From contig OX638133.1 of the NCBI GenBank assembly GCA_951804985.1, forward strand, positions 77,072,367 through 77,136,366: a stretch of DNA of 64,000 nucleotides. Direction: 5' to 3'. Made by a program: the position numbers and the translations under genes. Position 1 is the stretch's first letter; each line of letters starts with the position of its first letter. Source of the stretch: Dryomyza anilis (lineage: Eukaryota; Arthropoda; Insecta; Diptera; Dryomyzidae). This document shows, piece by piece, positions 6,982-61,598 of the stretch. Below the pieces are notes generated by a model, which searched no databases, was not told the DNA's origin, and saw only the letters and a program-made list of their open reading frames with translations.

Positions 6982-8175
6982 TCGTCACTATCATGCCAAA
7001 GGGGCGAATGTGCAATTTTTGACATTTGCGTTTTTTTACATTTTTGAATGTAGTTTTTCTTCAAGTATACTGTGCTAAAATCGCGTGTCGTTTTGTTGGA
7101 TATATCTAGCCACAAAAGTCAAAACCAAAAGGGCGAATTTGAAAAATTAAAAATCTTGTCATGCCAAAAGGGCGAATCTTTCCTTTTTCGCCATAACTAT
7201 TTATTGGTACGAGATAAAATAGTAGTGCGAAGGCATTTATTGTTTGTTTTTAAAGTACCTATCGATCTGCATCATTAATTAAAAATATTTTGTCAAACAT
7301 TAATTTGCCATTTGTTATTTGCAGGAAAAAAAGTTTGGAAAAAATATTTTTAAATAATGATGCAGTTCGATAGGTGCTTTAAAAACAAACAATAAATGCC
7401 TTCACACTACTATTTTATCTCGTACCAATAAATAGTTATGGCGAAAAAGGAAAGATTCGCCCTTTTGGCATGACAAGATTTTCAATTTTTCGAATTTTTG
7501 TTATTTGCAAGAACATATTTTTAAGTAATGATGCAGATCGATAGGTGCTTTAGAAACAAACTATAAATGCCTTCACACTACTATTTTATCTCGTACCAAT
7601 AAATAGTTATGGCGAAAAAGGAATGATTCGCCCTTTTGGTATGACAAGATTTTCAATTTTTCCAATTTATTCGTTTTTTTGCTATAGCTTTTTATTCGTG
7701 CAAGATGAAATAGTAGTTTAAAGGTATTAGTTGTCTGTTTTTAAAGCACCTATCGATTGGCATCAGTATTTAAATTTGCCAAAAAAATGTTCCTTCAAAT
7801 AACAAATGGCAAATTAATGTTTGGCAAAATATTTTTAAATAATGATGCCAATAGATAGGTGCTTTAAAAACAAACAATTAATTCCTTTACATAACTATTT
7901 TATTTTGAGCTAATAAAAAGTTATAGCATAAAAAACAAAAATATTTGCATTTTGGTCAGGATATAGCCTCACAAAATTCGTATATATAATTCAGTAAATT
8001 GTCCGAATCCGAAGATATTTATATACGTTATAATAATTCATGAATAAACCAAAATAACAAAAAAAATTGAAAAAAAAATCAATTTTTCTAATTTTTAAAG
8101 CACTTCAAACTTTAAAATTTGATTTCCAAACATTTTTAAAAATGAACATTCGACCCTTTGGCATGACAGTGACGA
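6982..8175. mobile_element. Palindromic foldback-type element (1.19 kb, TA-flanked)
   Basis: Ends are inverted: TCGTCACTATCATGCC at the left and GGCATGACAGTGACGA at the right, each flanked by TA. Inside, a module of roughly 125 bp carrying CATGCCAAAAGGGCGAATC alternates in orientation: forward ~7159-7290, inverted ~7340-7475, inverted again ~7515-7645, then two diverged pieces to ~7940. The motif or its complement occurs about six times. There is no transposase frame; the 68-codon frame at 7072-7278 lies inside the repeat module. Confidence 0.7.
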
Positions 8176-19583: not shown

Positions 19584-20369
19584 ACGAGTTGGGAAAGTTA
19601 GGTCACATGGGTAAGTTCGGTCACATGGGGCGGATTTTTATAGTCGGTCGGGCCCGACTATGGAATACCCTACACCTTTGGTGGGGATATTAACCCTCAG
19701 AATATTATTCATATATCAGAAATTTACGTCTTACATCCCCATAAATTAAAAAAATTATATAAAGTATAAAAAACAAAAAAAAAAAAATTAGAAAAATATA
19801 ATTGGGCGGACCACGCCTATATTTAAAATTTTGTAAGGCTAATATTTAATAGAATTGATTTTAATAATTAACGGATCAAATTTCCACTATTAAAAACCGG
19901 GAAATTATGAAAAAAAAATGTGGGCGGATCACGCCCATTTTTGGACCACACATTTTTAGGTGAATTATAACAATATTTTTTAAATTTTACAACTATATCT
20001 TGAATACTTTTCGAGTTATTAGTTCCCAAAGATTTATATAAAAGTGACTTAAATGGGAGGTGGGCGTGTCTGTTGACCGATTTGGCTCATTTTCAAACTC
20101 AGTTCCTACTTTTGGCTAAAATATATTGTGACGAAATTTCATCGTATTCTGATCAGTATTTCTCAAGATTTTCTGTATTCGGACAGCAAGACAGCAAGAC
20201 AGCAAGACGGACAGACAGACAGACAGACAGACGGACATGGCTAAACGGACTCGGGTATTGATGCTGATCAAGAATATATATACTTTTCCATACCGGACAC
20301 GCCTCCTAAGGGGCGTTACAATATATGCACAAAGTTAATATACCCTGTACCTCATAGGTGTAGGGTATA
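19584..20369 (-). mobile_element. DINE-1-like element, family A, near complete
   Basis: On the minus strand: TATACCCTACACCTATGAGG, TGTAACGCCCCTTAGGAGGC, TATATATTCTTGATCAGCAT, a GTCT/GTCC core and CTTGCTGTC repeats, CCAAATCGGTCAACAGAC, GGGCGTGATCCGCCCAC, the GGGCCCGACCGACTAT hairpin and TTCCCAACTCG. Non-coding. The GGACCACG octamer in it is the site duplicated in the split copy at 50608-61786. Confidence 0.85.
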
Positions 20370-20699
20370 AACATCAACATTTCATTGCGAAATTCACTAA
20401 AACTTAAATTTTGCATAAACAAAGAAAATTAAATATAAATTTCTAAAGCTTTCGTATAATCATTCTTAAATTATCACATATGTATATTCAAAATGTTATT
20501 GAAGCCACCTCATTAAATATAGTTTCACTTCTTCAATACGGCATTATCTTGCGCTGTCTCATTACAACACCTTTTACATGTACCGCACGTCAAAATACAA
20601 TTTCCGGTTTTAACACAATTTGTATTATGTACAAAAGAACACAAATAAAAAATTCAATAAAACCATCATAAATCGCATTTAAATACGAATATCGGCTCA

Positions 20700-22158: not shown

Positions 22159-22324
22159 CGTTCTATATAACACATATGATCAAATGTTATATCGAATGAA
22201 ACCTAATTGAATATCGAATAAACATTTATTAGAACATTTTTAAATTCGTTCATTAGTTTAAGAGAACTCGAAAGGAGAACTTGAAAAAAAATTAAACTAA
22301 AATTAAAGAAAAAACTCATTTAAA

Positions 22325-22638
22325 ACGAGTTGGGAAAGTTTGGTCACATGGGTAAGTTCGGTCACATGGGGCGGATTTTTATAGTCGGTCGGGCCCGACT
22401 ATGGAATACCCTACACCTTTGGTGGGGATATTAATGTGGGATATTTAATTGCATACCTTAGTTTTAAAGTTTTTAATTATGCTGAACCTCCCCACCGTCA
22501 GAATATTTTTCATAAATCAGAAATTTACGTCTTATATCCCCATATATTAAAAAATGTATATAAAAGTAGGAACAACTAAAAAAAAAAATTGAAAAATATA
22601 ATAGGGCGGACCACGCCTATATTTAAAATTTTGAAAGG
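22325..22638 (-). mobile_element. DINE-1-like element, family A, 3' portion of an interrupted copy
   Basis: Runs from CGAGTTGGGAAAG through the GGTCGGGCCCGACTAT hairpin, CACATTAATATCC and the GGGCGGACCACGCC block, then stops at TTTTGAAAGG. The 5' portion of the same copy resumes at 24085. About 240 bp of the middle is missing, so this is a replacement, not a simple insertion. Confidence 0.8.
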
Positions 22639-35103: not shown

Positions 35104-35109
35104 ACTCTT

Positions 35110-35246
35110 TATACCCTACACCTATGAGGTACAGGGTATATTAACTTTGTGCATATATTGTAACGCCCCTTAGGAGGCGTGTCCGGTATGGAAAAGTATA
35201 TATATTCTTGATCAGCATCACTACCCGAGTCCGTTTAGCCATGTCC

Positions 35247-35282
<36 letters not shown>

Positions 35283-35957
35283 TGCTGTCTTGCTGTCTTG
35301 CTGTCTTGCTGTCCGAATACAGAATAACTTGAGAAATAGTGATCAGAATGCGATGAAATTTCGTCTCATTATATTTTAGCCAAAAGTAGGAACTAAGTTT
35401 GAAAATGAGCCAAATCGGTCAACGGACACGCCCACCTCCCATACAAGTCTTTTTTATATAACTCTTTCGGAACTAATAACTCGAAAAGTATTCAAGGTAT
35501 AGTTATAATATTTAAAACGTATTGTTAGAATTCACCTTAAAATATGTGGTCCAAAAATGGGCGTGATCCGCCCACTTTTTTTTTTCATTATTTCCGGGGT
35601 TTTCGTAGTGGAAATTTGAACCGTAAATTATTAAAATCAAATCTATGAAATATTATCCTTACAAAATTTTTGAATATAGGAGTGGTCCGCCCATTTACAT
35701 TTTTCTAATTTTTTGTATTCGTTTTTTATACTTTTATATCAATTTTAAAAATAATGGGGATATAAGATGAAAATTTCTGATATGTGAATAATATTCTGAG
35801 AGTGGGGAGGTTCAGTATAATTAAAAACTTTAAAATTAAGATATACAATTAAATATCCCACCAATGGTGTAGGGTATTCCATAGTCGGGCCCGACCGACT
35901 ATAATAGTCCGCCCCACATGACCGAACTTACCCATGTGACCTAACTTTCCCAACTCG
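35110..35957 (+). mobile_element. DINE-1-like element, family A, complete reference copy
   Basis: Blocks in order: TATACCCTACACCTATGAGG, TGTAACGCCCCTTAGGAGGC, TATATATTCTTGATCAGCAT, CCATGTCCGTCTGTCTG with a GTCT core and four CTTGCTGT repeats, AAATCGGTCAACGGACACG, GGGCGTGATCCGCCCAC, GTGGTCCGCCC, GTGTAGGGTATTCC, the GGGCCCGACCGACTAT hairpin and TTCCCAACTCG followed by T's. 848 bp, no coding. The minus-strand frame at its 3' end (35849-36043) is mostly DINE sequence. Confidence 0.88.
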
Positions 35958-36900
35958 TTTTTTGTATGTATTTTGACTTGAATTAAAATGATTTCCAAGA
36001 ATTTGCGCACCCTCAGACGGCAAAACCACTGTAGCAGCTTCATCTTTAGAAATTATTATTTATTTGTTCAACTCCGAAGACTCACAATGTATAATTTATT
36101 TATCAGGCTGTAAGAGTTGCTAATATGAAGATCGAAGACAGAGTACTGAAAATTTTGAAGAATTTTTTTTGTTTTACTAAAGTATTTATAAAAGTAAATA
36201 AAGTATTTATAAAATGTATAATATAAACACTGAACATTTTAGTATTCATTGCAATTTTTAATTTGTTTTTAGTATATTAAATATAAAAATTATTTCAAGA
36301 ACGAGGGTATTGTAGTGACTGTCTACTATAACCAAAAAATACATGATTAGACTACGCTTCAAAATCCCCAAAAATGTTGGTATTTCATATGCAATAACTT
36401 AAAAAAAATGAAATAAACTAAATGAATAATGCCCAAATTTATCACACAAATTGTTGTTAATGCAATATCCCTCAAACAAAATGAAATAACCTCCAAAATA
36501 AATTAAAAAACACCCAGAATACAAAAATAAATAGTGGATAATTAATTTTAAAATAAAATGTTAAATGATATTTTATGATATGTATTTTAGATATAGTTGT
36601 CTTCTACAGAATAATTGAACTTCCTAGCAAACCAAACGATATTTAAACTATATCGAAGCGATATATTATAGGCTCAAGTTATTGTTTTCTATAATATAGA
36701 ATGATACGAGAACGCTAGGGTTTTCAATAAAAACGAATCTATCAAGATTGATATTGTTGTTTTTATTACTATAGATACCGACATGATATCGTAAATGGTT
36801 TTATTTTCGATAAATAAAATTTATTTGTTTGGAAAAAATATTTTTTTTTAAAAAATTCTAAAGTACACACAATTCAATTATCAATAATTTAAGTTTTATA
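35958..36900. other. Unassigned; short coding-like patch at 35995-36050
   Basis: The minus strand of 35985-36050 reads as a mixed-composition peptide (KDEAATVVLPSEGAQILG) without a start, perhaps a lost exon. The rest is AT-rich. CCTAGC near 36625 and GCTAGGG near 36713 might bound a small element, but only six bases match. Confidence 0.3.
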
Positions 36901-42313: not shown

Positions 42314-42975
42314 GTTCACCACACTAAAGCTCACCACAATTAAATTCTCCACACTAAAATTAACCACACTAAAATTCACCACACTCAAACTCACCACAAT
42401 AAAATTCACAACACTAAAATTCACCACACTCAAACTCACCACAATAAAATTCACCACTATAAAGTTCACCACAATAAAATTAACCACACTAAAATTCACC
42501 ACACTCAAACTCACCACAATAAAATTCACCACTATAAAGTTCACCACAATAAAATTCAGCACACTAAAACTCACCACAATAAAATAAACAACACTAAAAA
42601 ACACCACACTAAAATTCACCATAATAAAATTCACCACACTAAAATTCTATACACTAAAACTAACTAAAACACACCAAACTAAAACTCACCACACTAAAAT
42701 TCACCACACTTAAACTCACCACACTAAAATTCACCACACTAAAACTCACCACAATAAAATTCACCACACTCAAATTCACCACACTAAAATTCACCACACT
42801 CAAACTAACCACAATAAAATTCACAACACTAAAATTCACCACACTAAAACCCACCACAATAAAATTAGTCACAATTAACCACCACACTAAAACTCACCAT
42901 TATAAAATTCACCAGACTAAAACTCACCACACTAAAATTCACCACAATAAAATTCACTACACTAAAATTTTAAAC
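42314..42975. repeat. Minisatellite, ~15-bp unit TTCACCACACTAAAA
   Basis: About 44 near-tandem units of (A/T)TCACCACA(C/A)TAAAA with variants. As 15 is divisible by three, the minus strand stays open and gives Val/Asn/Phe/Ser repeat frames (42290-42637, 42660-42887) that are not genes. The array resumes at 44015 after a LINE insertion. Confidence 0.9.
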
Positions 42976-42996
42976 ACTTACTTACTTACTTACTTA
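42976..42996 (-). repeat. Tetranucleotide 3' tail of the LINE
   Basis: (ACTT)n on the plus strand, which is (AAGT)n directly after the LINE 3' end on the minus strand. Short microsatellite tails of this kind are typical of RTE-clade LINEs, which supports the orientation and a genuine 3' end. Confidence 0.7.
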
Positions 42997-43004
42997 AATG
43001 GCCC

Positions 43005-44014
43005 TTACAACCGTGGGTCGGTTTTGGCCGCTGAGATGAAGCCGCGCCAGTCGGATCTGCTTTGCGCGCGCTGACGCCAGTTAGAAATACCAAGCGTTGC
43101 CAGGTTGTCCTCAACTTGGTCTTTCCAACGCAGATTTGGACGCCCTCTTCTACGCTGTCCACCTTCGAGTTTCGATTCAAGCACCTTCTTGGCTGGAGTG
43201 TTTTCATCCATTCGTTCGACATGACCTAGCCAGCGAAGCCGCTGGATCTTGATGCGCTTGACTATGTCAATGTCGTCGAATAACTCATATAGCTCGTGGT
43301 TCATCCTGATTCGATACTCGTTAGCAAAGCAGATAGGGCCAAAGATTTTACGGAGAATCTTTCTCTCGAACGCTCCCAGTACTCTCTCATCGGTGGTGGC
43401 CAGCGTCCATGTTTCTGCACCATAAAGTAGGACGGGCATGATGAGTGACTTGTAGAGCGTTATTTTTGTCCGGCGAGAGAGGGCTCTGCTTCTCAATTGC
43501 CTACTGAGCCCAAAGTAGCACCTGTTGGCAAGAGTTATTCTCCGTTTGATCTCCAGGCTGACGTCGTTGTTGCTGTTTACGCTGGATCCCAGATAGACGA
43601 AGTCCTTCACAATGTCGAACTTGTGGGTGTCAAAATCAGCTTTTTGTCCAAGACGCACGGACTCTTTTTTGCTTGTTGACACAAGGAACTTCGTCTTGTC
43701 CTCGTTCACCGCTAGACCCATTCGACGCGACTCTTTCTCCAATCTGTAGAATGCTGCGCTGACTGCTCGTGTGCTCCTGCCAATGATATCAATATCGTCG
43801 GCATATGCGAGCAGCATGACACTTTTCTTGAGGATAGTGCCGCTTTGACGGAGTTCGGCAGCTCGAACTATTTTCTCCATCAATAAGTTAAAAAAGTCGC
43901 ACGATAGGGAGTCACCCTGTCTGAAACCTCGTTCGGTATGAAATGGCTCGGAGAGGTCTTTTCCTATTCTCACTGAGCAACGTGTGTTGCTCAGGGTCAT
44001 CCTGCAAAGCCTTA
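43005..44014 (-). CDS. 5'-truncated RTE-like LINE reverse transcriptase
   Basis: The minus frame ends at TAA (43005-43007) and encodes ~335 residues of a non-LTR retrotransposon polyprotein. In order: the RT motif RQGDSLS, the catalytic YADD in LLAYADDIDIIG, a YLGSSV block, LYKSLIMPVLLYGAETW, then the C-terminal RLRWLGHVERMDE and RRGRPNLRW segments typical of LINEs that end soon after the RT. The endonuclease and the start of RT are missing through 5' truncation. The frame is open with no stop, so the insertion is fairly young. It sits inside a minisatellite, and the first ~47 codons of the open frame (to 44153) are translated repeat. The RTE clade is inferred from the C-terminal blocks and tail; related CR1- or Jockey-like clades are less likely. 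Confidence 0.85.
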
Positions 44015-44206
44015 CACTAAAACACACCACACTAAAATTCACTACACTAAAATTCACCACACTTAAACTCACCACACTAAAATTCACCACACTTAAATTC
44101 ACCACAATAAAACTCACTACACTAAAATTCATCACACTTAAAATCACCAACAAAAATTCACCACACCTAAACTCACAATACCAAAATTCACCACACTAAA
44201 ACTTCT
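44015..44206. repeat. Minisatellite TTCACCACACTAAAA, continuation
   Basis: Same ~15-bp unit as 42314-42975, interrupted by the LINE. The last units pass through ACTTCTACTGGGAAAAACTC into the GAATTC minisatellite. Confidence 0.88.
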
Positions 44207-44221
44207 ACTGGGAAAAACTCT

Positions 44222-44430
44222 ATGTGGAAGAATTCTACGGGAAGAATTCTACCGGGAAGAATTCTACCGGGAAGAATTCTACGGGATGAATTCTACCGGG
44301 AAGAATTCTACGGGAAGAATTCTACCGGGAAGAATTCTACGGGAAAGCGTTCTATGGGGAAGAAATTTACGAGAAGATTTCTACTGGGAAGAATTTTACT
44401 GCGAAATATTCTACGGGGAAGCACAGTCTG
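44222..44430. repeat. Minisatellite, ~15-16-bp unit GGGAAGAATTCTACC
   Basis: About a dozen units of GGGAAGAATTCTAC(C/G), decaying to the right into GAAATATTCTACGGGG. It is always preceded by the TTCACCACACTAAAA array: the same pair, with the same junction, occurs in reverse orientation at 49985-50210. Confidence 0.88.
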
Positions 44431-49984: not shown

Positions 49985-50210
49985 TGCCCGTAGAATACTT
50001 CCCGGTAGATTTCTTCTCCGTATGACGCTTTCCCGTAGAATTCTTCCCCGTAGTGTTTTTCCAGGAGAAGTTTTAGTGTGGTGACTTTTAGTGTGGTGGG
50101 TTTTAGTGTGATGAATTTAGTGTGGTGAATTTAGTGTGCTGAGTTTTAGTGTGGTGAGTTTTAGTGTGTTGAGTTGGGTGTGGTGAATTTTGAGTGGTGA
50201 GATAAATTAA
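49985..50210. repeat. Two-part minisatellite, second locus, reverse orientation
   Basis: CCCGTAGAATTCTTCCCCGTAG units (49985-50060) pass through TGTTTTTCCAGGAGAAGTTTTAG into TTTTAGTGTGGTGA(A/G) units (50075-50205). This is the complement of 42314-44430, with the same junction, but much shorter and with no LINE. Confidence 0.85.
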
Positions 50211-50607
50211 GATGAGTAACATCCAATTTTAAAGTTTAGTTGAAATCGATATCATTAGGGCTGACATATAGCGTACTGAATTTTTGGGTTCTATGGGAGG
50301 TGCCACTCCACTTTGCCCAATATAGTTTATATATGGTTTAGGATACTCAATTGACTTTATAGCAAAGTAATGCAAATTGTCAGAAAAATACATTCAGTGG
50401 TTTGAATATGGTTGAATATTTTATTGTAATTTTATATGTATATTTATAATTTTTTATTAATCTTATTTTACTTTGATTTTTATTTAATTATTAATATTCT
50501 GAAACCGTTTACTTAGTTATACACTTTCTTCTCTTCTGCTGCCTCCACTGTTGGTCGATGTATAAACCTTTTGTATGTTTGCTACTTATGCGCGATCTCA
50601 TCAAAAA
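50211..50607. other. No gene recognised
   Basis: AT-rich sequence between the minisatellite and the split DINE-A; nothing to report. Confidence 0.5.
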
Positions 50608-50896
50608 ACGAGTTGTGAAAGTTAGGTCACATGGGTAAGTTCGGTCACATGGGGCGGATTTTTATAGTCGGTCGGGCCCGACTATGGAATACCCTACACC
50701 TTTGGTGGGGATATTAATGTGGGATATTTAATTGCATACCTTAATTTTAAAGTTTTTAATTATGATTTACCACCCCACCCTCAGAATATTATTCATAAAT
50801 CAGAAATTTACGTCTTATATCCCCATAAATTAAAAAAATTATATAAAAGTATAAACAACTAAAAAAAATTTGAAAAATATAATTGGGCGGACCACG
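50608..50896 (-). mobile_element. DINE-1-like family A, 3' half of the copy split by the giant element
   Basis: CGAGTTGTGAAAG, the GGTCGGGCCCGACTAT hairpin and GGTGGGGATATTAATGTGGG up to GGGCGGACCACG, where the 10.3-kb element begins. GGACCACG (50889-50896) is the left copy of the target duplication. The other half resumes at 61207. Confidence 0.85.
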
Positions 50897-51816
50897 ACTG
50901 GTGTGAAGATAGCCCACGAGGCGAATTGGAAGATAGCCCACAATTTGAATTCGCCGCAAATTTTTTTTTTTTTGCTTAAAAGTACAAAATATCATTGTTT
51001 TATAGATAAATTCCATTATTTATGCAATTAAATGATCATTAATGCAGTTAAAATACCAAAAACTATACATTTTTGACGAATTAGCTGAGTTTCAGTGCAC
51101 TTCACGTGGCCATAGTATTTCAATGCAGATTGTGTTGCAATACTAAATTTTCGCATCCTAAAATAACTTAATAGTATAACAAAGGCATTAGAAGATATTT
51201 TTGGGGTCGGTCCACCTCAGAATTAGGTGAAAACCTATATAAAACCGGTGCAAAATCACAAAAACACGTATTTTTCATAAGGTACTCATATTGAAATCAA
51301 TTTTCCGAGACTTTAAGAAAAAACCTCATCGGGATTTTTTTTTTTATAGAAAGCTAATAGTATAAGGAAACATCTGCTATATTCGATATATATGATTTCA
51401 GGGGACATCGCATCGAAATCGAGCACTGAATTTGAAATATTAGTTTTATGATACAAAATATAGGGTGTTCTATTTAAATGCACATTTTAAAAGTTATGAA
51501 TATTTTCTCACCGTGTATTTTTTTTTATAAATACCCAATACCAATACAAAACTTTTCTGAAACCAACATATATCCGATTTAGATCATATAGATCATATAG
51601 AAATCGGGCGTTGAACATAACATGTGGTTATTACACTTATTATTCATTTTTTTTTTAAACCACATATTTGAAGATGAAAAAAATATAGAAAGCGTAGACA
51701 GATTTTCAATATTTTTGATTCTAATGAAAGATTGCTTAATTATCTTACTTTAATTTTTTAAAAAGTACCAGCCCACAATTTATTTTGAGTCCTTCATGGT
51801 TAAAATTGATGTTAAA
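50897..51816 (+). repeat. Left terminal inverted repeat of the giant element
   Basis: Matches the complement of 60286-61206 with few differences. The outer ~370 bp are found only in the arms. The inner ~550 bp (from TCATATTGAAATCAATTTTCC near 51285) are part of the 1.44-kb monomer. GAAGATAGCCCAC occurs twice near the tip (50905, 50929), and GGCGAATT/AATTCGCC form a small inverted pair there. Confidence 0.9.
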
Positions 51817-54800
51817 AAAAAGTCTAATTTTTTTTTTTTTTACAAAATTAACACCAATATTGATGAAGTATTTTTGTACTTTAAATGATTTTTTCACAAT
51901 GTATTTAATTTTAAACAATCGACAATGGTATTCTACAAATTTTATGGAGTCGGTGTACCACCACTTTAGGGGACATAACTGCTAAATCTTGTCATTAACA
52001 TAAAAAAAAGCATATTGTACATGAAGTTTTTATAGCAATTTACAGATTTTGAGCCAATAAGAATCTTTCTCGCAGTGTATTTTTTTATGAAATTGCTAAT
52101 GATATTTGTAAACAGTTTTGAATTCGTTTAACGTTTGATTTAGCAGAAATACATAGAAAAAAAATAATAATAACAACAAAATATGTGAATTTGTCATATG
52201 ATACTCATATTGAAATCGATTTTCCGAGACTTTAAGAAAAAACCTCATCGGGAATTTTTTTTTATGGAAAGCCAATAGTATAAGGAAACATATTCTATAT
52301 TCGACATATACGATTTCAGGGGACATCGCACCGAAATCGAGCACTGAATATGAAATATTAGTTTTATCATACAAAATATAGGGTGTTTCATTTGTGTTTT
52401 TATACCTTAAATGATTTTTTCACTGTGTATTTAATTTTAAACAATCGACCATGGTATTCTACAACTTTTGTAGAGACGGTATACCACCAGTACTGGGGTC
52501 ATAACTTCAAAATCTGGCCATAAACATGAGAAAAGTATATATTATATGCAGTATTTAGACAAATTTACAGATTTTGAGCCAGTAAGAAACTTTCTCAACG
52601 TGTATTTTTTTTTTAAGTATCTGATAGTATTTGTAAACAGTTCTAAATTTGTTTTACCTCAGATTTAGGAGAAATACATAGAAAAAAAAGTAGTAATAAC
52701 TGCAAAATATGTGAATTGGTCATATGGACTCGTATTGAAATCGATTTTCCGAGACTTTAAGAAAAAACCTCATCGGGAATTTTTTTTTATGGAAAGCCAA
52801 TAGTATAAAGAAACATATTCTATATTCGATATATATGATTTCAGGGGACATCGCACCGAAATCGGGCACTGAATTTGAAATATTAGTTTTATGATACAAA
52901 ACATAGGGTGTTATAATTGAATGAATATTTCAAGAGTTATGAATATTTTCTCACCGTGTATTTTTTTTTTGTAAATACCCAATACTAATACAAAACTTTT
53001 CTGTAACCAACATATATCCGATTTATGGGGAGATCATATAGAAATCGGACGTTGAACATAGCATGTGGTTATTACACTTATTATTATTTTTTTTTTAAAC
53101 AACATATTTGAAGATGAAAAAGTATAGAAAACTTAAACGGATTTTCAATATTTTTGATTCTAATGAAAGATTGCTTAATTATCTTACTTTAATTTTTTTA
53201 AAAGTACCAGCCCACAATTTATTTTGACTCCTTCATAGTTAAATTTGATGTTAAAAAAAGTCTAAATTTTTTTTATTTTTCACAAAATTAACACCAATAT
53301 TGATGTACTATTTTTGTATTTTAAATGATTTTTTCACTGTGTATTTAATTTTATACTATCGAACATGGTATTCTACAACTTTTATGGAGTCGGTGTACCA
53401 TCAGTTTATGGGACATAACTTCTAAATCTTGTCATTAACATAAAAAAAGTATATTTTACATGAAGGTTTTATACGAATTTACAGATTTTGAGCCAGTATG
53501 AGTCTTTCTCGCAGTGTATTTTTTTAAGAAATTGCTAATGACATTTGTAAACAGTTTTGAATTCGTTTAACGTCTGATTTAGCAGAAATACATAGAAAAA
53601 AAATAATAATAACTACAAAATATGTGAATTTGTCATATGGTACTCATATTGAAATCGATTTTCCGAGACTTTAAGAAAAAACCTCATCGGGAATTTTTTT
53701 TTATGGAAAGCCAATAGTATAAGGAAACATATTCTATATTCGACATATACGATTTCAGGGGACATCGCACCGAAATCGAGCACTGAATATGAAATATTAG
53801 TTTTATCATACAAAATATAGGGTGTTTCATTTGTGTTTTTATACCTTAAATGATTTTTTCACTGTGTATTTAATTTTAAACAATCGACCATGGTATTCTA
53901 CAACTTTTGTAGAGACGGTATACCACCAGTACTGGGGTCATAACTTCAAAATCTGGCCATAAACATGAGAAAAGTATATATTATATGCAGTATTTAGACA
54001 AATTTACAGATTTTGAGCCAGTAAGAAACTTTCTCAACGTGTATTTTTTTTTTTAAGTATCTGATAGTATTTGTAAACAGTTCTAAATTTGTTTTACCTC
54101 AGATTTAGGAGAAATACATAGAAAAAAAAGTAGTAATAACTGCAAAATATGTGAATTGGTCATATGGTACTCGATTTTCCGAGACTTTAAGAAAAAACCT
54201 CATCGGGAATTTTTTTTTATGGAAAGCCAATAGTATAAGGAAACATATTCTATATTCGATATATATGATTTCAGGGGACATCACACCGAAATCGGGCACT
54301 GAATTTGAAATATTAGTTTTATGATACAAAACATAGGGTGTTATATTTGAATGAATATTTCAAGAGTTATGAATATTTTCTCACCGTGTATTTTTTTTTT
54401 GTAAATACCCAATACTAATACAAAACTTTTCTGTAACCAACATATATCCGATTTATGGGGAGATCATATAGAAATCGGACGTTGAACATAGCATGTGGTT
54501 ATTACACTTATTATTATTTTTCTTTTTAAACAACATATTTGAAGATGAAAAAAGTATAGAAAACTTAAACGGATTTTCAATATTTTTGATTCTTATGAAA
54601 GATTGCTTAATTATCTTACTTTAATTTTTTAAAAAGTACCAGCCCACAATTTATTTTGACTCCTTCATAGTTAAATTTGATGTTAAAAAAAGTCTAAATT
54701 TTTTTTATTTTTCACAAAATTAACACCAATATTGATGTACTATTTTTGTATTTTAAATGATTTTTTCACTGTGTATTTAATTTTATACTATCGAACATGG

Positions 54801-57800
54801 TATTCTACAACTTTTATGGAGTCGGTGTACCATCAGTTTATGGGACATAACTTCTAAATCTTGTCATTAACATAAAAAAAGTATATTTTACATGAAGGTT
54901 TTATACGAATTTACAGATTTTGAGCCAGTAAGAATCTTTCTCGCAGTGTATTTTTTTATGAAATTGCTAATGACATTTGTAAACAGTTTTGAATTTGTTT
55001 AACGTCTGATTTAGCAGAAATACATAGAAAAAAAATAATAATAACTACAAAATATGTGAATTTGTCATATGGTACTCATATTGAAATCGATTTTCCGAGA
55101 CTTTAAGAAAAAACCTCATCGGGAATTTTTTTTTATGGAAAGCCAATAGTATAAGGAAACATATTCTATATTCGGCATATACGATTTCAGGGGACATCGC
55201 ACCGAAATCGAGCACTGAATATGAAATATTAGTTTTATCATACAAAATATAGGGTGTTTCATTTGTGTTTTTATACCTTAAATGATTTTTTCACTGTGTA
55301 TTTAATTTTAAACAATCGACCATGGTATTCTACAACTTTTGTAGAGACGGTATACCACCAGTACTGGGGTCATAACTTCAAAATCTGGCCATAAACATGA
55401 GAAAAGTATATATTATATGCAGTATTTACACAAATTTACAGATTTTGAGCCAGTAAGAAACTTTTTCACCGTGTATTTTTTCTTTTTTAATTTCTGATAA
55501 CATTTTTAAACAGTTCTAAATTTGTTTTACTTCAGATTTAGGATAAATACATAGAAAAAAATAGTAATAACTGCAAAATATGTGAAATGGTAGTATGTTA
55601 CTCATATTGAAATCGATTTTCCGAGACTTTAAGAAAAAACCTCATCAGGAATTTTTTTTTATAGAAAGCTAATAGTATAAGGAAACATATTCTATATTCG
55701 ATATATATGATTTCAGGGGACATCGCATCGAAATCGAGCACTGAATTTGAAATATTAGTTTTATGATACAAAATATAGGGAGTTATATTTGAATGAATAT
55801 TTTAAGAGTTATGAATATTTTCTCACCGTGTATTTTTTTTTGTAAATACCCATCACTAATACAAAACTTTTCTGTAACCAACATATTCCGATTTATTGGG
55901 AGATCATATAGAAATCGGGCGTTGAACATAACATTTGGTTATTACACTTATTATTCATTTTTTTTTAAACCACATATTTGAAGATGAAAAAAGTATAGAA
56001 AGCGTAGACAGATTTTCAATATTTTTGATTCTAATGAAAGATTGCTTAATTATCTTACTTTAATTTTTTAAAAAGTACCAGCCCACAATTTATTTTGAGT
56101 CCTTCATGGTTAAAATTGATGTTAAAAAAAAGTCTAATTTTTTTTTTTTTTACAAAATTAACACCAATATTGATGAAGTATTTTTGTACTTTAAATGATT
56201 TTTTCACAATGTATTTAATTTTAAACAATCGACAATGGTATTCTACAAATTTTATGGAGTCGGTGTACCACCACTTTAGGGGACATAACTGCTAAATCTT
56301 GTCATTAACATAAAAAAAAGCATATTGTACATGAAGTTTTTATAGCAATTTACAGATTTTGAGCCAATAAGAATCTTTCTCGCAGTGTATTTTTTTATGA
56401 AATTGCTAATGATATTTGTAAACAGTTTTGAATTCGTTTAACGTTTGATTTAGCAGAAATACATAGAAAAAAAATAATAATAACAACAAAATATGTGAAT
56501 TTGTCATATGATACTCATATTGAAATCGATTTTCCGAGACTTTAAGAAAAAACCTCATCGGGAATTTTTTTTTATGGAAAGCCAATAGTATAAGGAAACA
56601 TATTCTATATTCGACATATACGATTTCAGGGGACATCGCACCGAAATCGAGCACTGAATATGAAATATTAGTTTTATCATACAAAATATAGGGTGTTTCA
56701 TTTGTGTTTTTATACCTTAAATGATTTTTTCACTGTGTATTTAATTTTAAACAATCGACCATGGTATTCTACAACTTTTGTAGAGACGGTATACCACCAG
56801 TACTGGGGTCATAACTTCAAAATCTGGCCATAAACATGAGAAAAGTATATATTATATGCAGTATTTAGACAAATTTACAGATTTTGAGCCAGTAAGAAAC
56901 TTTCTCAACGTGTATTTTTTTTTTTAAGTATCTGATAGTATTTGTAAACAGTTCTAAATTTGTTTTACCTCAGATTTAGGAGAAATACATAGAAAAAAAA
57001 GTAGTAATAACTGCAAAATATGTGAATTGGTCATATGGTACTCGTATTCAAATCGATTTTCCGAGACTTTAAGAAAAAACCTCATCGGGAATTTTTTTTT
57101 ATGGAAAGCCAATAGTATAAGGAAACATATTCTATATTCGATATATATGATTTCAGGGGACATCACACCGAAATCGGGCACTGAATTTGAAATATTAGTT
57201 TTATGATACAAAACATAGGGTGTTATATTTGAATGAATATTTCAAGAGTTATGAATATTTTCTCACCGTGTATTTTTTTTTTGTAAATACCCAATACTAA
57301 TACAAAACTTTTCTGTAACCAACATATATCCGATTTATTGGGAGATCATATAGAAATCGGACGTTGAACATAGCATGTGGTTATTACACTTATTATTATT
57401 TTTCTTTTTAAACAACATATTTGAAGATGAAAAAAGTATAGAAAACTTAAACGGATTTTCAATATTTTTGATTCTTATGAAAGATTGCTTAATTATCTTA
57501 CTTTAATTTTTTAAAAAGTACCAGCCCACAATTTATTTTGACTCCTTCATAGTTAAATTTGATGTTAAAAAAAGTCTAAATTTTTTTTATTTTTCACAAA
57601 ATTAACACCAATATTGATGTACTATTTTTGTATTTTAAATGATTTTTTCACTGTGTATTTAATTTTATACTATCGAACATGGTATTTTACAACTTTTATG
57701 GAGTCGGTGTACCATCAGTTTATGGGACATAACTTCTAAATCTTATCATTAACATAAAAAAAGTATATTTTACATGAAGGTTTTATACGAATTTACAGAT

Positions 57801-59553
57801 TTTGAGCCAGTAAGAATCTTTCTCGCAGTGTATTTTTTTATGAAATTGCTAATGACATTTGTAAACAGTTTTGAATTCGTTTAACGTTTGATTTAGCAGA
57901 AATACATAGAAAAAAAATAATAATAACAACAAAATATGTGAATTTGTCATATGGTATTCATATTGAAATCGATTTTCCGAGACTTTAAGAAAAAACCTCA
58001 TCGGGAATTTTTTTTTATGGAAAGCCAATAGTATAAGGAAACATATTCTATATTCGACATATACGATTTCAGGGGACATCGCACCGAAATCGAGCACTGA
58101 ATATGAAATATTAGTTTTATCATACAAAATATAGGGTGTTTCATTTGTGTTTTTATACCTTAAATGATTTTTTCACTGTGTATTTAATTTTAAACAATCG
58201 ACCATGGTATTCTACAACTTTTGTAGAGACGGTATACCACCAGTACTGGGGTCATAACTTCAAAATCTGGCCATAAACATGAGAAAAGTATATATTATAT
58301 GCAGTATTTAGACAAATTTACAGATTTTGAGCCAGTAAGAAACTTTCTCAACGTGTATTTTTTTTTTAAGTATCTGATAGTATTTGTAAACAGTTCTAAA
58401 TTTGTTTTACCTCAGATTTAGGAGAAATACATAGAAAAAAAAGTAGTAATAACTGCAAAATATGTGAATTGGTCATATGGACTCGTATTGAAATCGATTT
58501 TCCGTGACTTTAAGAAAAAACCTCATCGGGAATTTTTTTTTATGGAAAGCCAATAGTATAAAGAAACATATTCTATATTCGATATATATGATTTCAGGGG
58601 ACATCGCACCGAAATCGGGCACTGAATTTGAAATATTAGTTTTATGATACAAAACATAGGGTGTTATATTTGAATGAATATTTCAAGAGTTATGAATATT
58701 TTCTCACCGTGTATTTTTTTTTTGTAAATACCCAATACTAATACAAAACTTTTCTGTAACCAACATATATCCGATTTATGGGGAGATCATATAGAAATCG
58801 GACGTTGAACATAGCATGTGGTTATTACACTTATTATTATTTTTTTTTTTAAACAACATATTTGAAGATGAAAAAGTATAGAAAACTTAAACGGATTTTC
58901 AATATTTTTGATTCTAATGAAAGATTGCTTAATTATCTTACTTTAATTTTTTAAAAAGTACCAGCCCACAATTTATTTTGAGTCCTTCATGGTTAAAATT
59001 GATGTTAAAAAAAAGTCTAATTTTTTTTTTTTTTACAAAATTAACACCAATATTGATGAAGTATTTTTGTACTTTAAATGATTTTTTCACAATGTATTTA
59101 ATTTTAAACAATCGACAATGGTATTCTACAAATTTTATGGAGTCGGTGTACCACCACTTTAGGGGACATAACTGCTAAATCTTGTCATTAACATAAAAAA
59201 AAGCATATTGTACATGAAGTTTTTATAGCAATTTACAGATTTTGAGCCAATAAGAATCTTTCTCGCAGTGTATTTTTTTATGAAATTGCTAATGATATTT
59301 GTAAACAGTTTTGAATTCGTTTAACGTTTGATTTAGCAGAAATACATAGAAAAAAAATAATAATAACAACAAAATATGTGAATTTGTCATATGATACTCA
59401 TATTGAAATCGATTTTCCGAGACTTTAAGAAAAAACCTCATCGGAAATTTTTTTTTATGGAAAGCCAATAGTATAAGGAAACATATTCTATATTCGACAT
59501 ATACGATTTCAGGGGACATCGCACCGAAATCGAGCACTGAATATGAAATATTA

Positions 59554-59558
<5 letters not shown>
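51285..59558 (+). repeat. Tandem array of 1.44-kb monomers
   Basis: The landmark CCAGCCCACAATTTATTTTGA recurs at 51768, 53207, 54639, 56078, 57521 and 58961, at spacings of 1439, 1432, 1439, 1443 and 1440. Each monomer holds two related halves: TTTTCCGAGACTTTAAG recurs at alternating ~912 and ~526 bp. Two monomer types alternate as A B B A B A, judged by GAGTCCTTCATGGTT versus GACTCCTTCATAGTT. Copies of the same type look almost identical over hundreds of bases. Translated frames are short and end inside the repeats. Confidence 0.9.

Positions 59559-59584
<26 letters not shown>
59559..59584. repeat. (AT)13 dinucleotide run ending the array
   Basis: The last monomer breaks off at TTAGTTTTAT and passes directly into a pure AT run, after which the unique core starts. 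Confidence 0.9.
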
Positions 59585-60285
59585 TTAATTTATTTATGGT
59601 GATGTTTTAGGATTTTTAAAATAAATATATCTATATAACACACGACAAGTGACACCCGCATGATCACACACACACTGCCTATATGTATTCTAGTACAGCC
59701 ATCCAGTTGGCAACATCAACTTCTTGTACAAGCACACCAACGTTTTTTTTTTCGTACACAAAACTTCCCGCAAAAAATTCTATCCCAAGCTTGTGTGCTT
59801 GTGTTCTTCCATTCTCATATGTTTCTTGTTGCGTCAACGAAAAGTATGCAGCGAAAACAACAGAAGAAAAGTATTGTAGCAGCACTAACCATAGCAACAC
59901 ATATATCATAGGTATTATTAGTGTGTATGAAGCATAATAAGTACAGTCGTACTATTGTTAATTCAATATAAACTATGAAATAATAAATTATTAATTTTTT
60001 ATTTGCAAAAAAATCCACATTCACTCCCAAAAGTGCCATCTATCGTTTTTTTCGAAAAGGTTCGTTTTTTCGAAATGGTTCGTTTTTTCGAAATGGTTCT
60101 GACATTTGATATAATCCAATTTTTCCTGCGCACTGTATGCACCAAATACACGAACAAAACAGCGCTCCACAGGGAGTGAATATCACACAGCTTAATGCAC
60201 AAAAAACACAGGGTGGGTATATCTAGAATAAATCCGTAATAATGCAAAATATTTGAAATTATATAAATTGAAATTTGTGGACCTA
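59585..60285. other. Unique core of the giant element
   Basis: The only part not explained by arms or monomers. 59650-59930 is GC-richer and open in several frames (plus 59660-59911 and 59683-59937, both from ATG; minus 59679-59909). None resembles a transposase or any family I know. GGTTCGTTTTTTCGAAA(T/A) is repeated at 60045-60095. It may be the remnant of an autonomous element's interior or a captured fragment. Confidence 0.5.
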
Positions 60286-61206
60286 TTTTTAACATCAATT
60301 TTAACAATGAAGGACTCAAAATAAATTGTGGGCTGGTACTTTTTAAAAAATTAAAGTAAGATAATTAAGCAGTCTTTCATTAGAATCAAAAATATTGAAA
60401 ATCCGTTTACGTTTTCTATACTTTTTTCTTCTTCAAATATGTTGTTTAAAAAAAAAATGAATAATAAGTGTAATAACCACATGTTATGTTCAACGTCCGA
60501 TTTCTATATGATCTATATGATCTAAATCGGATATATGTTGGTTTCAGAAAAGTTTTGTATTGGTATTGGGTATTTATAAAAAAAATACACGGTGAGAAAA
60601 TATTCATAACTTTTAAAATGTGCATTTAAATAGAACACCCTATATTTTGTATCATAAAACTAATATTTCAAATTCAGTGCTCGATTTCGATGCGATGTCC
60701 CCTGAAATCATATATATCGAATATAGCAGATGTTTCCTTATACTATTAGCTTTCTATAAAAAAAAAAATCCCGATGAGGTTTTTTCTTAAAGTCTCGGAA
60801 AATTGATTTCAATATGAGTACCTTATGAAAAATACGTGTTTTTGTGATTTTGCACCGGTTTTATATAGGTTTTCACCTAATTCTGAGGTGGACCGACCCC
60901 AAAAATATCTTCTAATGCCTTTGTTATACTATTAAGTTATTTTAGGATGCGAAAATTTAGTATTGCAACACAATCTGCATTGAAATACTATGGCCACGTG
61001 AAGTGCACTGAAACTCAGCTAATTCGTCAAAAATGTATAGTTTTTGGTATTTTAACTGCATTAATGATCATTTCATTGCATAAATAATGGAATTTATCTA
61101 TAAAACAATGATATTTTATATTTTTAAGCAAAAAAAAAAAAATTTGCGGCGAATTCAAATTGTGGGCTATCTTCCAATTCGCCTCGTGGGCTATCTTCAC
61201 ACCAGT
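60286..61206 (-). repeat. Right terminal inverted repeat of the giant element
   Basis: Complement of 50897-51816, including the inner ~550 bp of monomer sequence in inverted orientation (landmark complement ending at 60335) and the double GTGGGCTATCTTC at the tip. Confidence 0.9.
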
Positions 61207-61598
61207 GGACCACGCGTATATTTAAAATTTTGAAAGGCTAATATTTCATAGATTTGATTTTAATAATTTACGGATCAAATTTCCACTATGAAAACCCGGG
61301 AAATAATGAAAAAAAAGTGGGCGGATCACGCCCATTTTTGGACCAAATATTTATAGGTGAATTATAACAATACCTTTTAAATTTTATAACTATTCCTTGA
61401 ATACTTTTCGAGTTATTAGTTCCGAAAGAGTTATATGAAAGTGACTTGTATGGGAGGTGGGCGTGTCCGTTGACCGATTTGGCTCATTTTCAAACTCAGT
61501 TCCTACTTTTGGCTAAAATATATTGAGTCGAAATTTCATCGCATTCCGATCAGTATTTCTGAAGTTATTCTGTATTCGGGCAGCAAGACAGCAAGACG

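Follow-up and report, generated by a model that had tools for sequence, protein, structure and literature searches.

The 64,000-nucleotide stretch of the Dryomyza anilis genome analysed here, hereafter the window (C4:77072367-77136366 of the 656.6-Mb host assembly GCA_951804985.1, C4 being contig OX638133.1), contains a 10,310-bp element at 50897-61206 which is very probably a non-autonomous copy, cut down by internal deletion, from a family of giant foldback Mutator-like elements (MULEs) that was recently active as cut-and-paste transposons; envelope genes are likely integral to this branch, and not chance neighbours of its transposase. That the window element is a shortened deletion derivative of a giant foldback family is clear; a foldback MULE family with satellite-like arms is well supported, and the sequences compared make it likely that the envelope genes are a lasting part of the branch. 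We read the lineage as a Rehavkus/NOF-like foldback MULE with satellite-like arms that would have gained envelope genes. A preliminary description, made from the sequence of the window alone, did not foresee these genes, which we consider the greater surprise.

Satellite DNA is suspected to arise from foldback elements, of which autonomous copies are rarely found, with none reported for Tetris (PMC4079207). With the near-complete 25-kb copy described below, many recent insertions and arrays whose units can be counted, it becomes possible to measure how transposon-borne repeats arise, grow and are lost. The combination of satellite-like ends and envelope genes could connect DNA transposons with satellite DNA and with passage from host to host.

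The window element and its genomic family

Exact 8-bp copies of GGACCACG adjoin the element on both sides (50889-50896 and 61207-61214, unstranded), an octamer found four times in the window against 0.26 expected from shuffles. The element lies in a repeat which we take to be DINE, the name used in the preliminary description, and the other two places of GGACCACG (19808 and 22608) are in DINE copies that align uninterrupted across the site. When the flanks are joined over a single GGACCACG, they align through the DINE copies at 35104-35964 (90% over 879 bp; the last base of the 8-bp site differs here from GGACCACG), 19693-20371 (90% over 700 bp) and 22322-22638 (94% over 317 bp). Because the joined flanks run straight through three other copies, the element must have been inserted as one unit, as was originally proposed.

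Element positions 1-928 and 10310-9384 (window 50897-51824, plus strand, and 60280-61206, minus strand) form an inverted arm pair at 98.4% identity, including 629 bp at 100%, and six X-bearing units follow in direct order at spacings of 1439, 1432, 1439, 1443 and 1440 bp, in agreement with the ~920-bp arms and six 1.44-kb monomers first described. Each ~1.44-kb unit comprises two ~516-bp halves, a and b, which are 87% alike, and a ~398-bp block X. The outer ends are formed by block T (317 bp; left, 50897-51213, plus, starting ACTGGTGTGAAGATAGCCCAC; right, 60890-61206, minus), with the same ends in the genomic family, the inner limit on the right being set by symmetry. The left-arm array of six X-bearing units occupies 51214-59573 (plus). 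Within it, 51683-54668 and 55993-58990 (both plus) constitute a recent three-unit tandem duplication at a ~4.31-kb offset, aligning with 24 mismatches over about 3.0 kb and with six 200-bp blocks free of mismatches. The right-arm array is collapsed to one X and a partial half unit (60259-60889, minus), next to which, on the inner side, lies a 668-bp inner block, U (59591-60258, plus). The left U and the whole middle are missing, and the left array abuts a (TA)n tract at 59558-59584 (unstranded), the junction of the internal deletion, which resembles the tract at the inner edge of the right-arm U. The longest stop-to-stop frame is 121 amino acids, and the window copy therefore encodes nothing evident. 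A 12-mer, AGCCCACAATTT, is common to the end and the unit, a result reached in 1% of 2000 Markov controls; this is suggestive only, and the 12-mer might be a candidate transposase site.

When the genome was searched with a 204-bp end, 41 matches came up and all but one were close to full length, so that copies with these termini do exist elsewhere; since only 40 of 241 candidates were scored, the copy number is a lower bound. Thirty-two of the 40 scored ends form 16 convergent pairs, one is an extra end (C1:6851815) and seven are unpaired. Further insertions with duplications, which the preliminary description had advised looking for, were thus found: the duplications are perfect at 11 of 12 insertions tested (four of 8 bp, seven of 9 bp), within the 8-11 bp characteristic of the Mutator superfamily. 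At C5:24388327 and C1:6829138 the duplication is perfect only with the outermost of two tandem ends, and the inner choice gives none. Extra end copies beyond a complete end were seen in two elements (L053, C1:6850400-6854700, and L035:228-709), which we read as stepwise lengthening of the ends. Besides the window copy, ten copies were obtained end to end from 20 genomic stretches read, spanning 9,356 to 16,711 bp (the latter without an extra 104-bp end); omitted from these counts are C7:19147701 (one side read), C1:27935872 (326 bp of end seen in stretch L047) and C2:89539970 (5 kb read, L051).

Transposase and envelope genes

The fullest copy, C1:6829138-6854422 (25,285 bp; read at 6834900-6847600, 6850400-6854700 and the ends), is an autonomous-looking relative of the kind that the preliminary description suggested seeking, with the same ends and a transposase. 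After the left U (C1:6835323-6835987) come two envelope-type genes on the minus strand, of 473 amino acids (C1:6836206-6837624) and 513 amino acids (C1:6837658-6839196; both lengths stop to stop), then a 2.1-kb gap, then a 1521-amino-acid transposase frame on the plus strand (C1:6841282-6845844), followed by the right U; the ends of this envelope-bearing element are T blocks.

The transposase frame, open for 1534 codons in this copy, joins a MULE-like DDE transposase, a match to a Ulp1-type (C48) protease and a cysteine-rich end with a weak PHD match. Residue D620 is conserved in all eight aligned proteins, and D692 and E939 in each of the seven with letters there; these we take to be the catalytic residues. 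The C48 match (E=2e-4, just above cut-off) was obtained with the C-terminal 508 residues, where H1349, D1366 and C1423 are in place; of two distant homologues, P0007 also has C48, and in P0008 a PHD match exceeds the cut-off (4.5e-6). The matches listed for this frame (MULE, C48 and PHD) include no P or THAP family, the mark of Galileo and the P superfamily. A similar frame at C5:24393819 is frame-shifted and lacks the N-terminus. Relatives occur in Glossina, at 48% and 58% over 62% and 28% of a 428-residue query, and residues 420-1010 match a 1421-residue protein at 54% over 96%. Carriage of the transposase by viruses was considered and rejected, none of 26 pattern-matched IMG/VR stretches encoding a relative.

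The 513-residue protein matches two envelope families above cut-off, Gypsy (PF07253, E=3e-10) and Baculo_F (PF12259, E=5e-7); no related solved structure was found up to E=1. The 473-residue protein is its 26% paralogue and matches no envelope family. Sister loci have a different envelope of 614 residues (Baculo_F, E=1.3e-24) divergently upstream of the transposase, whose best match to the 513- and 473-residue genes is at E=0.37. Both the 513- and 614-residue proteins have a furin-like site and a fusion-peptide-like motif. Five shorter derivatives retain most of the 473-residue gene, interrupted by a stop, and the last part of the transposase frame. That these 2.4-2.6-kb middles had newly captured the envelope gene was rejected, because the 25-kb copy has the same gene beside its transposase. 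A decayed copy at C6:18041000-18048500 retains U and X, and in it three pieces of the 473-residue gene, at 95-97%, point away from a transposase at 77%.

Across the genome, 63 transposase matches fall into 42 loci; in the envelope searches, 84 candidates out of 766 and 72 out of 755 were scored. At six loci one match alone spans more than 300 residues, always at 61% identity or above, and five of these have a divergent envelope gene within 12 kb (C1:6843064; C6:51544924, 51554545 and 51564988; and C6:33930671, with a gap of 7.6 kb). Among fragment loci at 60% or above the figure is one in five (C6:18045234), and among distant MULE loci (below 50%) none of 31 has an envelope match within that distance. 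The contrast between five of six close loci and none of 31 distant ones indicates that the association is a property of this MULE branch and not of MULEs at large. All four well-preserved sister loci carry the envelope divergently beside the transposase, from another envelope lineage. The three loci at C6:51.54-51.57 Mb may be one event copied, since less than 30 kb holds all three and their aligned envelope sequence is 100% identical; the independent envelope-bearing families therefore number two or three.

Several observations weigh against an integral place for the envelope genes, or against the assignment of the family. For 36 of the 42 transposase loci the listed matches include no envelope gene closer than 12 kb: the N-truncated C5:24393819, four of the five fragment loci (C1:23.21, C1:23.23, C6:15.16 and C6:56.19 Mb) and all 31 distant loci. 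Many related envelope genes lie elsewhere. One of them, C4:42254370-42255857 (L056), is an open 505-residue frame, 59% identical to the 513-residue gene, which has no Pfam match and neither transposase nor arms within 8 kb; it may be a gene that stands alone or has been kept by the host. All frames are open in a single copy, its arms only partly read, and its extra arm at the right end means that the ends used are not the simplest. The MULE match (PF10551, E=2e-4) scores 22.1 bits, below the cut-off of 27.6; C48 is not listed when the whole 1521-residue protein is scanned; PHD (PF00628) is below cut-off, at E=0.008 for the C-terminal 508 residues and 0.83 for the whole protein; and the predicted structure of homologue P0003 is unusable (pLDDT, a per-residue confidence score, of 45). 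One insertion, C6:32624158, has no perfect duplication.

The best surviving alternative is that the envelope genes are remnants of long terminal repeat (LTR) retroviruses, inserted by chance and then multiplied, with no working part in the element. Envelope-type genes of these kinds are common in the genome (91 and 84 matches) and most do lie away from transposase loci, yet in the 25-kb copy, the decayed copy and all four sister loci the gene occupies the same divergent place, and two envelope lineages are involved. The 473-residue gene appears to drift, with a ratio of nonsynonymous to synonymous change (dN/dS) of 0.7-0.9 against the decayed copy, whereas the 513-residue gene gives 0.38 in a single comparison with its relative at C4:42254370, which is not in such an element and in that respect favours the alternative. 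The envelope frames are open in the fullest copy and the sister loci. No pol-like frame was noticed by eye among the frames of L054, L052, L055 and L057, no LTR or pol search having been run. Taken together, we regard the retroviral-remnant explanation as unlikely, if still a serious one.

Under the preferred reading, that the genes belong to the branch, the envelope would perhaps serve spread between cells, or be only cargo. The bolder proposal, to which we give tentative and minority credence, is that a MULE lineage with satellite-like arrays in its arms more than once acquired retrovirus-type envelopes and kept them open in a fixed divergent arrangement with its transposase, and that these envelopes carry, or once carried, the element from cell to cell or host to host. 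If true, an envelope route for a cut-and-paste DNA transposon would bear on crossing between species.

Three further observations concern these genes. In the sister family, a 1.04-kb palindromic stretch (78%) lies between envelope gene and transposase (L057:2994-4036). At C6:58534928-58553636, five envelope matches at spacings of 4465, 4467, 4468 and 4463 bp form a tandem array of envelope-containing units, perhaps derived from the focal family, a unit match of which (C6:58555402) is some 2 kb away. Between an unpaired focal-family end at C7:9426391 and a match to the sister envelope at 94% (C7:9434808) the distance is 8.4 kb, perhaps a mixed element.

Arms, arrays and the satellite question

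In the ten non-window copies both sides read T, partial half, X, b, (a X b)n, X, U, several of these copies having lost, shortened or rearranged some of the blocks: C6:12663121 is rearranged, and one arm of C3:34475411 has a single X. U, of which the window copy lacks the left member, is present on both sides in all ten, one side being partial in four (C5_243, C3_344, C2_301 and C1_2789). Measured from outer end to inner edge of U, left arms (as oriented in the assembly) are 4.4-8.3 kb and right arms 1.6-7.8 kb long, with a middle of 154-4,506 bp between them; C2:83249490 matches its own inverse at 99.1% over 7304 bp. Such long, internally repetitive inverted arms place the family copies in the foldback class. 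A third type of middle (L033, L046 and L050) is 2.55 kb long with its own ~700-bp inverted repeats, and gave no Pfam match above cut-off in two frames tested.

The preliminary description took the element for a compact foldback with ~920-bp arms and a satellite array as its interior, on the way to becoming a satellite. The window copy alone looks so, C3:34475411 also has one arm at a single X, and the recent three-unit duplication is array growth; unit sequence followed by the inner block is, however, present in both arms of ten other copies, and the ~920-bp arms are on this account a remnant left by deletion. The foldback with satellite-like units stands, but the array belongs to the arms, which reach 8.3 kb when whole. 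A 29-base unit tag has 326 genomic matches at up to two mismatches, against none for its reversed control; among the 100 listed, all exact, 88 are in 16 paired-end elements and 12 elsewhere, and the largest cluster is eight, with no monomer-only array there in the assembled sequence. An element "caught between transposon and satellite" finds no backing in these clusters, and we judge the compact model quite improbable. Four of the 12 outlying places have an envelope match less than 6 kb away, as decayed copies would. A monomer search, in which the best 23 of 298 candidates were scored, gave at least 88 matches, the majority inside these elements. That the family results from misassembly, or from a single segmental duplication spread over several sites, is scarcely credible: assemblies often go wrong at palindromes and tandem arrays, and one assembly was seen, but different 8-9-bp duplications mark 11 of the 12 sites and the window insertion has an empty site.

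Units cluster largely by arm position rather than by element (71 X blocks in 11 copies, matches covering less than about 350 bp being dropped). Arm-to-arm homogenisation was considered, same-position X blocks being 2.3% apart within an element (27 pairs) against 3.3% (268 pairs). The permutation P was 0.019 on ten elements, with the window copy excluded, but the copies occur in either orientation, and C6:12663121 is set off from all others. The claim was dropped in view of the five envelope-type derivatives: on matching sides their outermost X blocks are 0-0.8% apart, whereas an element's own two arms differ by 1.3-2.5%. As matching-side X blocks are closer across elements than the arms within one, the arrays are read as inherited through transposition.

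The observed ends, arrays, duplications, open frames and domain matches can be joined in one mechanism. A complete arm consists of T, a variable number of 1.44-kb units and U, with two arms inverted around the middle; the predicted transposase would recognise T ends and insert copies with 8-9-bp staggered cuts, and arrays would lengthen or shorten through in-register unequal exchange. An internal deletion ending in (TA)n and a contraction of the right array would have produced the window copy, which would have moved in trans.

Beside the decayed copy lies a ~164-bp tandem repeat (L055:5445-7501, C6:18.046 Mb), with the unit length of TCsat23 in Rehavkus-1_TC (see below), which may be chance.

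Related systems and other repeats

The comparisons here are with what the available excerpts of the cited papers describe. Rehavkus is the nearest known kind: these MULE-like elements have 9-bp duplications, a PHD finger, a minisatellite that precedes the 3' end and, in a table, ends of 26-400 bp (PMC6446971), and the 9.5-kb Rehavkus-1_TC of Tribolium has 164-bp TCsat23 units, mostly five and eight, in its inverted ends (PMC10218199). The focal family shares the MULE-like transposase with a PHD-like end (a weak match here), the 9-bp duplications and the tandem repeats in inverted ends that typify Rehavkus and MULE-NOF elements; it differs, by description, in its 1.44-kb units, arms of up to 8.3 kb, element of up to 25.3 kb and envelope-type genes. 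Tetris of Drosophila virilis has arms of up to 1,735 bp, ~220-bp units, 8-10-bp duplications and suggested Mutator membership; no transposase-bearing copy was found, and there were 39 repeat-only contigs, yet fibre-FISH (fluorescence in situ hybridisation) saw no repeat-only array (PMC4079207). Both are foldbacks with repeats in the arms, with 8-9-bp duplications here; as far as the descriptions go, the present family is larger, as was anticipated from the window, and has longer arms, 1.44-kb units and a transposase-bearing copy, with no repeat-only array among the listed places. Its envelopes resemble the gypsy errantivirus Env and baculovirus F proteins in their PF07253 and PF12259 matches, and differ in lying beside a DNA transposase between foldback arms.

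FB/NOF of Drosophila melanogaster is a foldback with 9-10-bp duplications and ends of ~700 bp, and likely a MULE. To our knowledge, its repeat units are short and it has no envelope gene. The focal family is likewise foldback and MULE-like, but with arms of up to 8.3 kb and with envelope genes. An FB4 element is described in PMC8277862.

Tm1 has composite inverted ends with ~14-bp motifs, duplications in Phantom/Tm1 are 8-10 bp, and Phantom MULEs have no finger, or FLYWCH or SWIM fingers (PMC3169594, PMC6446971); they share a MULE transposase with the focal family, and the excerpted descriptions mention no protease or envelope gene. An arthropod survey of 322 MULEs, of the same superfamily, reports elements of 1.4-10.0 kb, against 25.3 kb here, with ends of 13-1193 bp, complete elements with a single frame, and Rehavkus only as outgroup (PMC13359780). 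Plant MULEs with tandem ends have extra end copies outside the normal end (PMC3310237), as at C5:24388327 and C1:6854422. Teratorn and Polinton/Maverick are DNA transposons joined with viral genes (PMC6431247); unlike the focal family, they are not MULEs and have no gypsy-type Env in that account. Titles and abstract openings of the literature found name no envelope gene in a MULE or foldback transposon, which is not a claim of its absence from print.

The window also contains 15-bp minisatellites of the TTCACCACACTAAAA and TTCTACGGGAAGAA types at 42315-44421 and 49987-50217. They flank a 382-residue frame that by eye resembles reverse transcriptase (43005-44153, minus), and recur inverted about 6 kb away, immediately left of the window element. 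At 7344-7668 there are 1.9 copies of a 171-bp unit, at 95% identity.

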